A stretch of DNA of 64,000 nucleotides from Candidatus Saccharimonadota bacterium (GTDB lineage Bacteria; Patescibacteriota; Saccharimonadia; Saccharimonadales; Saccharimonadaceae), in the NCBI GenBank assembly GCA_015655045.1, contig JAATFU010000005.1, forward strand, positions 62,001-126,000, in the 5' to 3' direction. The translations under genes and the position numbers were made by a program. Under the pieces are notes generated by a model. It was not told the origin of the DNA, made no database searches, and was given only the letters and a program-made list of their open reading frames with translations. Below are positions 9,107-13,806 of the stretch, one piece after another. Each line of letters starts with the position of its first letter. Position 1 is the stretch's first letter.

Positions 9107-10531
9107 TTAGACGTCAAGCTCAACTGGAAGCACGCTCTCGGCCCATAGCTGCATCTCTTGAATCACAAACTGCTTTGAATCATCAGTGATAGTCGCTGCA
9201 AGCTTTTGAAGCGACTTCATAAATCCAGGTAACGCATTGGTAATCTGGGCGGAACGCCATGCTTCCCATGCCACCGCCTCATCTTGGGAGAGAACCTTCG
9301 GGAAGTTGCGGGCTTTATAGTGTAACAAGAGTTCCGGCAATCGTTCGTCAATAAAATCAGGATGAAAGTCCGCAAGATCATGCTCAGTTGCGTTTCGAAC
9401 CGCTTCAATGCGTAGCCGATCTGTATCAGGTACGAAGCTATCGTAAAGTTGCGCTTCCGGATTAGGCGACTTCTTATACTCACGCTTGTTTTCGAAAATA
9501 CCCCGAATGTTCTCAGCAAATCCTGGTGCCGAAAGCAGAATATTACGATGGGTCGTTATCGTCTCTTCGGTAAGACTTAGTTTAGCCCATCCATCTGCTT
9601 GTGCAAGCACTCCCAGTGGTGCAACGGCGGGAGCACGATTATATTGAATTTCTTCAACCGGAAGCTTGACGAATGCCTCTGCTTGACGCTCTTCCCAAGG
9701 GGTATAGAGAATATTAGCTAGTTCATGAGATGAAAGCTGTAGAAACGGCGTTGGATCAATCCGCAGGTCATAGACGACCACGTTACCATTCTTACCAGCA
9801 GTCAAGGGAAAGGCCACGGTCGCTTTATTATATGCCCCATCAAGATGGCCACTCACATAGACAAAAGGTTGTTTATCTTCCAGATTAACCAGTTGTTTGA
9901 CTTCATTCTTATCGCGCATTTTAAAGAGATAGTCGTAAAGTTGTGGCTGTTTTGACTTAATAAGCCGAGTTACGCCAATCAGAGCTTCAACATCACTCAG
10001 AGCATCATGGGCCTTTACGTGATCAAGCCCATTCGATCCGCTCAGAAGTTCAAGTCTATTCGTTGGCTGACCTTTGTCATCGACTGGCCAGACGATACCC
10101 TCTGGCCTTAAGGCTCGAGTCATACGAACCACATCGAGAAGATCCCAACGCGAGCGTCCTTCCTTCCAAGTCCATTCATATGGATCGTAGAAATTGCGCC
10201 AAAATAGATGTCGGATAAATTCATCATCGAAACGAATATTATTAAACCCTACTGCTATGGTATCGGGGGTAAAAATGTCATCTGTCAACAGGCGGGCAAA
10301 GTCAGCCTCAGTATACCCATCGGCTTGAGTATCCTGTGGCGTAATACCCGTAACCATCAATGCTTCGGGGGTTGGCAAAACATCGTCAGTAAGCTTTACT
10401 AGCACGTTTACAGGCTCTCCGATTGGCTCGAGATTCATAGTAGTTCGAATACCGGCAAACTGCATAATACGCGATTCTTGAGGGCTAAGGCCACTCGTTT
10501 CAAGGTCGTAAAAGAAAAAGGTTTTAGGCAT
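9107..10531 (-). CDS. sbcB: Exodeoxyribonuclease I
   Basis: 474 residues, the length of E. coli ExoI. The DEDDh exonuclease motifs are visible: FYDLETSG (Asp9, Glu11), GFNNIRFDDEF (Asp102/103) and HDALSDVEALI (His175, Asp180). ExoI degrades single-stranded DNA 3' to 5' in recombination and mismatch repair. The -10 box TATGCT ends exactly 6 nt before the ATG. The same 17-base block around the start recurs at the prepilin gene at 59159. The structured RNA terminator ends about 85 bp upstream, so sbcB has its own promoter. Confidence 0.93.
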   Translation of the reverse strand: MPKTFFFYDLETSGLSPQESRIMQFAGIRTTMNLEPIGEPVNVLVKLTDDVLPTPEALMVTGITPQDTQADGYTEADFARLLTDDIFTPDTIAVGFNNIRFDDEFIRHLFWRNFYDPYEWTWKEGRSRWDLLDVVRMTRALRPEGIVWPVDDKGQPTNRLELLSGSNGLDHVKAHDALSDVEALIGVTRLIKSKQPQLYDYLFKMRDKNEVKQLVNLEDKQPFVYVSGHLDGAYNKATVAFPLTAGKNGNVVVYDLRIDPTPFLQLSSHELANILYTPWEERQAEAFVKLPVEEIQYNRAPAVAPLGVLAQADGWAKLSLTEETITTHRNILLSAPGFAENIRGIFENKREYKKSPNPEAQLYDSFVPDTDRLRIEAVRNATEHDLADFHPDFIDERLPELLLHYKARNFPKVLSQDEAVAWEAWRSAQITNALPGFMKSLQKLAATITDDSKQFVIQEMQLWAESVLPVELDV

Positions 10532-10543: not shown

Positions 10544-10614
10544 ACAAAAAACACGCTACTTGGCGCGCTAGATCTCTTTCTCAATTGACTTTGCAAGGTC
10601 AGAGTATCATCGTC

Positions 10615-11009
10615 TAAGAAAATAACGCCCCTGAGGGCGTTAAGGTGTATTGATGAAGAATAAAATGGGGGTCGAGTAGGAGGAGATTCAGGAGAAGCGC
10701 GGAAGCTTCAGAATCCTTATAAGACGAGGTCTTACTCTCCTCCTACCCGAAATTGCTGTATCCACCAGGGGAGGTAGTGGATATACCACGGCAGGCTGTG
10801 AAAACACCATGGTCCAGCAAGATTAGAGCACACGTTCGAGTACGTGTACTCTACATGACGTGGGCTCACAGCCCACGAAACAACGCAACAGCCCGAGGAG
10901 GGAGGCTGTTGCGTTGGCCTTCAAGGTATAAAATCTCAAAAAATAAGCAACAGCTCTCTACTATTCATTTCATCAAAAAACATCAGGGGACAGTAATGTC
11001 TCGACTGAT
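10615..11009 (-). ncRNA. Structured RNA of unknown family, about 395 nt
   Basis: This gene-free interval between obg and sbcB has its own promoter and a terminator on the minus strand. Read on that strand, a helix of 8+5 pairs near the ends (UUGAUGAA with UUCAUCAA, GAAUA with UAUUC) closes the molecule. Inside are a 13-bp hairpin (10881-10917), an 8-bp hairpin (10859-10877), a long hairpin over 10825-10853, a UUGCUG/CAGCAA stem holding two hairpins (10751-10820) and an 11-bp arm GUAGGAGGAGA/UCUCCUCCUAC with nested stems (10675-10747). The CCAUGG/CCGUGG pair needs a U-G wobble that works only for minus-strand RNA. RNase P, tmRNA, SRP and 6S signatures were looked for and not found. No ORF fits. 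Confidence 0.7.
10617..10641 (-). terminator. Rho-independent terminator of the structured RNA
   Basis: Stem AACGCCC / GGGCGTT with loop TCAG, followed on the minus strand by ATTTTCTT. There is no T-run on the plus strand, so it is a minus-strand terminator. Confidence 0.75.
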
Positions 11010-11015
11010 CTTATA

Positions 11016-11044
11016 ATTATGTCACCTATAATATGTAAAGTCAA
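11016..11044 (-). promoter_or_regulatory. Promoter of the structured RNA
   Basis: TTGACT, 17-bp spacer, CATAAT on the minus strand. It starts 9 bp after the obg stop codon. Predicted transcription start is near 11009. Confidence 0.7.
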
Positions 11045-11052
11045 TAGAGGCT

Positions 11053-12348
11053 TTATTGTTCAATAAAGGTAAATGCCTGATCACCAATGAATATCATCGT
11101 TTCAGCCTCGGCACCCTTTCGACGGAGCTCATGACTAATGCCTAGTTTCTTCATGATATCTCGAAGACGATTCACGCCTTCAAAGCTGTCAAAGTCAGTT
11201 CGACGAGCAAATTTCTCTATCTTCTCGCCAATAACCCTAAAGGAAAGCACACCATCTTCTTCCACTGTTTCAATAGTCCAACCTTCTGCAATTTGTGTCT
11301 GCCCAAGGCTAATCGTCTCGTAGTCATCGGGGAGCGCATCTTCCTCGTATTCAGCCGTTGCTTGACGCGCATCACTCACCTTCTGGCGGAGTACTCGCAA
11401 TACTTCCTTTAAGCCTTGGTGAGCAGTCGATGAAAGCGCAAAGATAGGCACTTCTCCCGCGACGGCCCGAACCGCATCCATTTGCATTGCAATAATATCT
11501 TCGTCGAGGCCATCAATTTTTGTTAAAGCAATCACCTCGGGGCGATCCGTAAGAGCCATGTTATAACTTGCTAGCTCGTGACGAATGGTTGTATAGGCCT
11601 GAGCGATATCGTCCGTATAGACATCAATGAGGTGAAGAAGTACTGCGGTACGTTCGACATGACGAAGGAACGCATCCCCCAAGCCCTTACCTTCACTCGC
11701 TCCTTCAATAAGGCCCGGAATATCGGCAATCAACAAGCTTCCATCATCAATATCAGCCACACCAAGGTTTGGAGTTAGAGTCGTAAAGGCATAGTCGGCG
11801 ATTTCAGGTCGCGCATTACTGACCACCGAGAGAAAAGTTGACTTACCTGCATTTGGAAATCCTACTAAGCCCACGTCGGCTAAGAGTTTGAGTTCAAGCT
11901 CGGCTTCAAAGGTATCACCAAATTCACCCTTTTCAGCCATACGTGGGGTTTGTCGAACCGAGCTCTTGAAATGAGCATTTCCAAAGCCGCCATCGCCCCC
12001 TTTTGCAATAATCACTTCCTGGTCGTTATCGGTCAAATCAGCGATTATAACGCCGTCTCGACGAACGATCGTACCCATTGGTACTTTGACATATAATGGT
12101 TCACCCGAGCGGCCATGGCGGTCTTGCTTTGAACCATTTTTACCGGGTTTTGCCTTTAGTTCCGGTTTATAGCGAAAATCTAAAAGTGTGTTGACGTTTT
12201 CAGTGGCAACAAAGATAACGTCACCACCTTTCCCGCCGTCACCCCCGTCGGGGCCTCCCTTATCAACATAGATTTCATGACGAAAGCTAACGGCTCCGTC
12301 GCCGCCCTTACCTGCTTGAATTAATACTTTGGCGGTGTCGACAAACAT
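11053..12348 (-). CDS. obg: GTPase Obg/CgtA
   Basis: 431 residues with the three-domain Obg layout. The N-terminal Gly-rich Obg fold spans about 1-158 (GGPDGGDGGKGGDV). The G domain has P-loop GFPNAGKS (163-170) and switch region DIPGLIEGAS. The OCT domain fills about 345-431. Obg is an essential GTPase in large ribosomal subunit assembly and stress control. An extended -10 (TGCTATACT) ends 9 nt before ATG 12348 with no Shine-Dalgarno. The adjoining structured RNA starts from its own promoter just after the stop. Confidence 0.96.
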   Translation of the reverse strand: MFVDTAKVLIQAGKGGDGAVSFRHEIYVDKGGPDGGDGGKGGDVIFVATENVNTLLDFRYKPELKAKPGKNGSKQDRHGRSGEPLYVKVPMGTIVRRDGVIIADLTDNDQEVIIAKGGDGGFGNAHFKSSVRQTPRMAEKGEFGDTFEAELELKLLADVGLVGFPNAGKSTFLSVVSNARPEIADYAFTTLTPNLGVADIDDGSLLIADIPGLIEGASEGKGLGDAFLRHVERTAVLLHLIDVYTDDIAQAYTTIRHELASYNMALTDRPEVIALTKIDGLDEDIIAMQMDAVRAVAGEVPIFALSSTAHQGLKEVLRVLRQKVSDARQATAEYEEDALPDDYETISLGQTQIAEGWTIETVEEDGVLSFRVIGEKIEKFARRTDFDSFEGVNRLRDIMKKLGISHELRRKGAEAETMIFIGDQAFTFIEQ

Positions 12349-13578: not shown

Positions 13579-13806
13579 TATCGTTCTCCTGCCGCCTGTA
13601 TTACTACAAGGGCGTCTACCATACTATGTCTTTCTTCTCGCTAAGAACAGGGTACGTGTCGACCGATTTCATTAATAATATTAGTTGAAAGTGTTCTGTT
13701 TCGGTACCCGTGCGACATTTCTGGTAGGCTCATCTATGCTCCGTGCTTCCCACTCGCTGATGTCAGTCTTTCGACCGCACTAGTAGACAGAGTCACAAAT
13801 GTGCTA
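13579..13806 (-). promoter_or_regulatory. Long structured 5' leader of the CHAP gene
   Basis: About 228 nt of untranslated leader are predicted between the promoter and the ATT start. On the minus strand it contains a hairpin CGGUC-GAAA-GACUG. It also has a larger pairing of CGGGUAC with GUACCC, nested with ACCGA/UCGGU. Known ydaO (c-di-AMP), GEMM, SAM, fluoride and ZTP motifs were considered but do not match. It may be an unrecognised cis-regulatory RNA. Confidence 0.45.

Follow-up and report, generated by a model that had tools for sequence, protein, structure and literature searches.

A structured RNA between obg and sbcB of a Saccharibacterium as a probable member of a family of sealed-end cassette transcripts

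The 395-nt RNA unit encoded on the minus strand in the obg/sbcB intergenic region, at positions 10615-11009 of the window (the whole 64-kb stretch of DNA analysed here), very probably belongs to an undescribed RNA family found only in Saccharibacteria, in which the two ends of the transcript pair around an exchangeable interior. As the best explanation, to which a probability of roughly 55% was given, the unit was taken to be an independently transcribed member of a Saccharibacteria-specific group of sealed-end cassette transcripts. According to this explanation, a constant frame made up of a strong promoter, a 5' hairpin, an end-pairing helix and a terminator or hammerhead would shield both RNA ends, the seal together with the ribozyme or terminator would yield a long-lived RNA, and the interior would be replaced wholesale between units. 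The interior of the window copy would consist of very stable non-coding arms presenting C-rich loops that contain CCUCC. Non-coding units may act via such loops, and coding units would be translated. Because ORFs with actinobacterial codons occur in the same frame, we infer that the frame makes a long-lived RNA which works in, or has been shaped by, an actinobacterial host.

The flanking genes and the elements of the unit were listed in Table 1. The window was assigned to a Saccharibacterium, since the named relatives of its sbcB were Ca. Saccharibacteria, with one labelled Chloroflexi, and since it contains two Rfam motifs, one of which is named after TM7. The original prediction had placed between obg and sbcB a minus-strand unit with a promoter, a terminator, a helix joining its ends and at least six internal helices including a three-way arm, and all of these were found again in the sequence and in the MFE structure, whose closing helix comprised 14 pairs with a 2-nt bulge. 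The minus-strand transcript had an MFE of -162 kcal/mol (z = -10.7) and none of 100 shuffles was as stable, whereas the fold of the plus strand was weaker (z = -8.0). The helix CCAUGG/CCGUGG, which had been said to fix the strand, does contain one U-G pair that would read A-C on the opposite strand. A duplex-energy test of the two closing strands of the window chose a different duplex, which was no better than those of shuffles, and gave no support by itself. In the Rfam scan, no match of the window unit reached gathering score, and those at E <= 10 were at the level of chance. The blastn search of the unit returned only the self-match against 60 relatives and no match against phages. The second terminator was regarded as part of the locus rather than of the RNA, because a terminator of like form closes the short intervals of L041 and L009. 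With an RNA-like anatomy of this kind, as read from the sequence, the window unit is almost certainly a real RNA gene.

Table 1. Elements of the window unit, its flanking genes, and hammerhead cores of related units (window positions unless a locus is named)
Feature	Position	Strand	Basis
obg (flanking gene)	11053..12348	-	
sbcB-type exonuclease (flanking gene)	9107..10531	-	
Promoter TTGACT-17-CATAAT, -10 preceded by TG	11016..11044	-	sequence
5' hairpin AUCAGUCGAGACAUUACUGUCCCCUGAU, the conserved 5' module	10982..11009	-	MFE; motif search; covariation of family hairpin
Closing helix, 5' strand UUGAUGAA-AU-GAAUAG	10961..10976	-	MFE; UUGACAAG at equivalent position in relatives
Two short arms	10918..10956	-	MFE
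Hairpin A, 14 bp, C-rich apical loop CCCTCCTC	10881..10916	-	MFE; loop analysis
Hairpin B CGUGGGCU-GUG-AGCCCACG	10859..10877	-	MFE
Hairpin C, 12 bp	10824..10853	-	MFE
Branched arm D, CCAUGG/CCGUGG (strand-specific U-G pair) and C-rich apical loop CCTCCCC	10753..10820	-	MFE; loop analysis
Long terminal arm E, three-way junction, purine-rich 5' strand	10672..10750	-	MFE
Closing helix, 3' strand UUAUUCUUCAUCAA	10650..10663	-	MFE; family-wide covariation
Intrinsic terminator of the RNA	10615..10642 (terminator hit 10642..10623)	-	sequence
Second terminator, upstream of sbcB	10550..10569	-	sequence; short-interval comparison
Hammerhead cores, L132	6499, 7923, ~10790	+	
Hammerhead cores, L117/L132 (those of L132 as above)			
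Hammerhead core, L144		-	
Hammerhead core, L147		-	

Contrary to the earlier view, the RNA is no orphan. About 50 units of this kind, the window RNA among them, were found in Saccharibacteria, often at obg-sbcB, and about half of them have ORFs inside the frame; they have in common a promoter, a 5' hairpin, an end-closing helix and a terminator or hammerhead ribozyme. The source genomes were mostly MAGs, and the units were collected manually on the basis of promoter and fold, after which ORFs and helices were assessed by the automatic rule. Relatives with a long obg-sbcB interval frequently had such a unit, in which the elements were ordered as a strong promoter, the hairpin ACC-AUCAG-UU-GAAAC-nnn-GUUUC-CUGAU-C-GGU, the segment ACAUUGACAAGYUGGAUA, 300 to 1400 nt of variable sequence, the segment UAUCCARCUUGUCA and a terminator, and the promoters were TTGACA-17-TATAAT-like and placed equivalently relative to the hairpin. 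A covariance model built from three units (R1) retrieved independent units at promoter-proximal sites. The compensatory changes that had been sought in the relatives were present in both the 5' hairpin and the closing helix. For the 5' hairpin, in an alignment of 14 sequences that was fitted to its own model, 92.6% of the cells were paired and double changes were seen in 12 of the 14 pairs; such changes were counted in 31 cells, compared with 9.9 in shuffles, and sliding the partner gave no more than 8. The closing helix of 20 sequences was 94.6% paired, with double changes in 10 of the 14 pairs (49 cells against 11.9 in shuffles). The helices were picked by complementarity, so an independent shuffle control was needed; a closing-helix score of at least 29 was reached by 28 of the 48 units and by 5 of the 384 dinucleotide shuffles. 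No relevant Rfam match at gathering score was obtained for 40 relative loci, and no prior description of the family was found in open-licence papers on noncoding or small RNA, codon usage, hammerheads and RNA transfer in Saccharibacteria or Patescibacteria.

The membership of the window copy was judged from several features. The single occurrence of the motif ATCAGTYGARAC in the 64-kb window, against 0.03 expected, lies at the start of the unit, and among 150 loci the motif was otherwise found only in L003 and L008, directly 3' of promoters in the same interval. A promoter stands immediately upstream of the 5' hairpin in the window copy, this hairpin fits the type AUCAG-UY-GARAC..GUYUC-CUGAU with a 5' strand motif common to L003 and L008, and a helix closes the ends just 5' of the terminator. 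Long branched terminal arms were present in L008 and L181 at the position equivalent to that of arm E. R2, a covariance model of the 5' module, gave the window copy only 3.2 bits, in an alignment that spans UUGA and the hairpin's 3' strand; this score was low because the closing helix of the window reads UUGAUGAA, whereas that of the family reads UUGACAAG. Owing to this departure, membership rests on the site, the hairpin motif and the architecture, by which the window copy very probably belongs to the sealed-end cassette family.

The interiors of the units were unrelated even between species of one genus, and the two copies in genome G035 were 86% identical over the first 130 nt and entirely different beyond that. 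ORFs were accepted with an SD-led ATG or GTG, a length of at least 25 aa and a start 110-260 nt downstream. A rule-fitting ORF was found in 30 of the 59 units compared with 11% of shuffles. The GC3 was at least 0.7 in 18 of these 59 units (0.7% of shuffles), and in 14 units (0.2% of shuffles) it also exceeded the mean of positions 1 and 2 by 0.2 or more. The resident sbcB genes had a GC3 of 0.36-0.63, mostly near 0.45, and an ordinary GC3 was also found in many cargo ORFs (such as L076, L132, L142 and L145). In its high GC3, the cargo follows the codon choice of high-GC actinobacteria, which serve as hosts to the known Saccharibacteria. The actinobacterial host group of Saccharibacteria has been described previously (PMC10633639).

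Putative Sec-type signal peptides were recognised by eye at the ORF start in L070, L088, L100, L124 and L134. The cargo of L145 (from unit position 239 onward) comprised 207 aa with a signal-like start and a sortase-type LPRTG tail, after which come a membrane segment and basic residues. In L115, the second ORF was identified as a Band-7 protein (Pfam 2.4e-7), and all 117 of its 117 phage matches were actinophage records. Between L115 and L116, the Band-7 ORF differed at 16 third, 5 first and 0 second positions, with a GC3 of 0.89 in both; with the differences mostly at third positions and none at second positions, the ORF has been maintained as a protein under purifying selection. It is homologous to Band-7-like membrane lipoproteins of actinophages (36% identity, 2e-40), but differs from these in lying on a Saccharibacterial chromosome, inside a sealed-end transcript beside smpB. 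The smpB-adjacent unit of one genus (L115, L116, L119 and L123; also L135 and L136) encoded a small membrane protein and a lipoprotein, the latter of Band-7 type in L115/L116 and PHROG 902-like in L136. For the cargo of L134 and L147, no plasmid or phage homologue was found at the limits used. Micro-ORFs, mostly SD-led, with SGFT, SGFI or a close variant at their end were detected in about ten units (L006, L011, L012, L020, L024, L043, L064, L078, L081, L118 and L127). Their serine codon was TCA, TCG, TCT or AGT, and since it varies between TCN and AGT, these sequences point to selection on the peptide. The window copy contained neither an SD-led ORF nor an SGFT micro-ORF, such cargo being an optional trait of about half of the members.

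The non-coding-looking units grouped with the window were L003, L008, L015, L046, L048 and L181, and z ranged from -7 to -13 for the seven other members folded. Apical loops with CCCC or CCUCC numbered 13 in this subset against 2.8 in shuffles (maximum 6), an excess which is suggestive but is no clean test, because the C-rich loops were already known when the subset was picked. Both C-rich loops of the window contain CCUCC, and the loop sequence varied among the members between CCUCC and CCCCC. Hairpin loops rich in C, for which pairing with G-rich partners is conceivable, are also a feature of 6C RNA of Actinobacteria and of the C-loop sRNAs of Gram-positive bacteria. The window RNA has C-rich loops as well, but it lacks an Rfam match to 6C, has many more arms and has sealed ends. 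Pairing of the window loops with G-rich sites, for example Shine-Dalgarno sequences, is a tentative suggestion.

It is possible, though we consider it the less probable reading, that the window RNA is a lineage-specific trans-acting sRNA which works inside the Saccharibacterium only, as Gram-positive C-loop sRNAs do, and that the ORF-bearing relatives are ordinary mRNAs with a common stabilising 5'/3' element. The unpaired C-rich loops of the non-coding members would suit such an sRNA, as would a promoter and a terminator of its own, and nothing observed requires export. However, interiors so unlike within one genus would be odd for conserved endogenous targets, the actinobacterial codon choice of the cargo would be unexplained, and the site is empty in many relatives.

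Taken from the sequences, the host-like codons, the actinobacterial export signals and the actinophage-type proteins favour action in the host or capture from the host for the sealed-end transcripts. Recent capture of host genes alone would be insufficient, because the fixed place, the frame and the purifying selection with retained GC3 would be left unexplained. The sealed-end explanation can be extended to the doubtful proposal that end-sealed, degradation-resistant RNAs are passed to the actinobacterial host, some as host-codon messages for secretion signals and phage-type membrane proteins, and others, the window copy among them, as non-coding RNAs whose C-rich loops would act on host transcripts. 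If this were true, one bacterium would be manipulating another at the level of messages; even if the RNAs remain in the epibiont, swapped cargo between covarying ends would be a new way of building bacterial transcripts. The sealed-end family provides a direct lead to the means by which Saccharibacteria influence their actinobacterial hosts. Autonomous transcripts with a constant covarying frame, swappable contents, some host-like codons and actinobacterial or actinophage-type proteins would represent a new kind of element. The family is testable now, because strain TM7i carries a unit at obg-sbcB and Saccharibacteria are transformable (PMC10633639).

The distribution of the units was patchy. 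Among the 69 relatives with both genes in reach, obg and sbcB were spaced by at most 120 nt in 26, many of which were of the window's own genus, and an interval of at least 300 nt without an ORF of 90 aa was found in 20. The 118-nt interval of L009, in which the 3' closing strand directly follows what is left of the 5' hairpin, its 3' part, looks like the deletion scar of an L008-type unit. On account of the short or empty intervals, this scar and the second terminator owned by the locus, the window RNA was regarded as an additional unit that is gained and lost at obg-sbcB. In the unit of TM7i (complete genome CP075337), a cultured strain, the promoter is of consensus type and the closing helix has ~15 bp, and a 393-nt unit resembling that of the window was found in Ca. 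Microsaccharimonas sossegonensis. Away from obg-sbcB, units were located beside smpB in one genus, three within 5 kb in G003 and in two copies in G035. In L015, from a species of the window's genus, three sealed-end units were arranged in tandem upstream of sbcB.

The R2 model matched 35 of the 151 family genomes (E <= 0.05) and 19 of the 247 order genomes (E <= 0.005); these counts are rough, because the window and other diverged units escape R2, whereas its weaker hits include false ones. Across the rest of the phylum, R2 gave a single borderline match in 145 genomes, which is the level of chance. The restriction of the model hits to Saccharimonadales, together with the covarying 5' hairpin and closing helix and the lack of an Rfam family, supported the suggestion made in the original prediction that this is a new RNA class of the lineage. 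The R2 hits in L137, L138, L141, L143 and L146 lay inside coding genes and were rejected as false. A pattern search of viral contigs gave one match, inside a coding gene, which was taken as a chance match.

The window copy is unlikely to be a decayed cassette that has lost its ORF and is drifting. The lack of an SD-led ORF and the likeness of L009 to a deletion scar would fit decay, but the promoter, hairpin, closing helix, arms and terminator of the window are intact, its fold is far stabler than those of shuffles, and its C-rich loops are common to other non-coding members. Slightly more improbable is a non-autonomous mobile element of DNA, with inverted repeats that only resemble RNA helices. 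Mobility would fit the patchy presence, the tandem arrangement in L015, the copies located elsewhere and the empty sites, but no transposase was seen, most units have a co-directional promoter at the start and a terminator or hammerhead at the end, the closing helix lies between promoter and terminator, and the fold is better on the RNA strand than on the complementary one. That the unit is the 3' untranslated region of obg or the leader of sbcB would agree with the strand common to both genes and the RNA, but is highly improbable in view of a separate promoter after obg, a separate terminator, the second terminator before sbcB and the similar units of relatives away from these genes. The other half of the earlier suggestion, a very diverged known RNA (RNase P RNA, tmRNA, 6S or SRP RNA), has a negligible chance, because, in spite of a size and compact fold that resemble RNase P RNA or tmRNA, both of these were located elsewhere in the same genome (G000:C5:14846-15176, 249.6 bits, and G000:C5:12765-13173, 107.4 bits), which refuted the two identities, and no Rfam match was obtained even at E <= 10.

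That the unit carries no signature of RNase P, tmRNA, SRP or 6S RNA had been noticed before and held in the Rfam scan, where the window unit matched none of RNase P RNA (RF00010), tmRNA (RF00023), 6S, SRP and 6C. Among the known systems that come nearest are the ornate large RNAs OLE, ROOL and GOLLD, which are, like the window RNA, long, highly structured, multi-arm bacterial RNAs (PMC12286853). The sealed-end family is unlike them in that it has no Rfam match, only its frame is conserved, its interior is swapped, it contains internal ORFs and its ends are sealed by a helix; neither the window unit nor the relative loci matched OLE, ROOL or GOLLD in Rfam. Hammerhead viroid-like RNAs and Obelisks are closed, self-paired RNAs that may carry a small ORF. 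A few sealed-end units resemble these in having a type III hammerhead near the 3' end, but the sealed-end units are encoded in DNA with a promoter and mostly a terminator, and have at most one hammerhead and no replicase.

Type III hammerhead cores 3' of closing helices were found in L144, L147 and G003 by a pattern search that included the stems, and the other units end in a terminator. No hammerhead core was found by the pattern search in the window copy, the 3' end of which is the terminator. A local search matched the L147 hammerhead to Rfam Hammerhead_3 at 37.5 bits (E 8e-7), short of the gathering score of 48.5 bits. Positions 5350-12110 of L132 formed an island of several closely spaced sealed-end units and related small proteins (..NGRLIIDD.., ..NGRLVIKD..). 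Two Rfam RNA motifs were located elsewhere in the window, namely MDR-NUDIX at 1346-1403 on the plus strand (67 bits) and lysM-TM7 at 13586-13729 on the minus strand (109.8 bits), the latter upstream of a LysM/CHAP-type gene.
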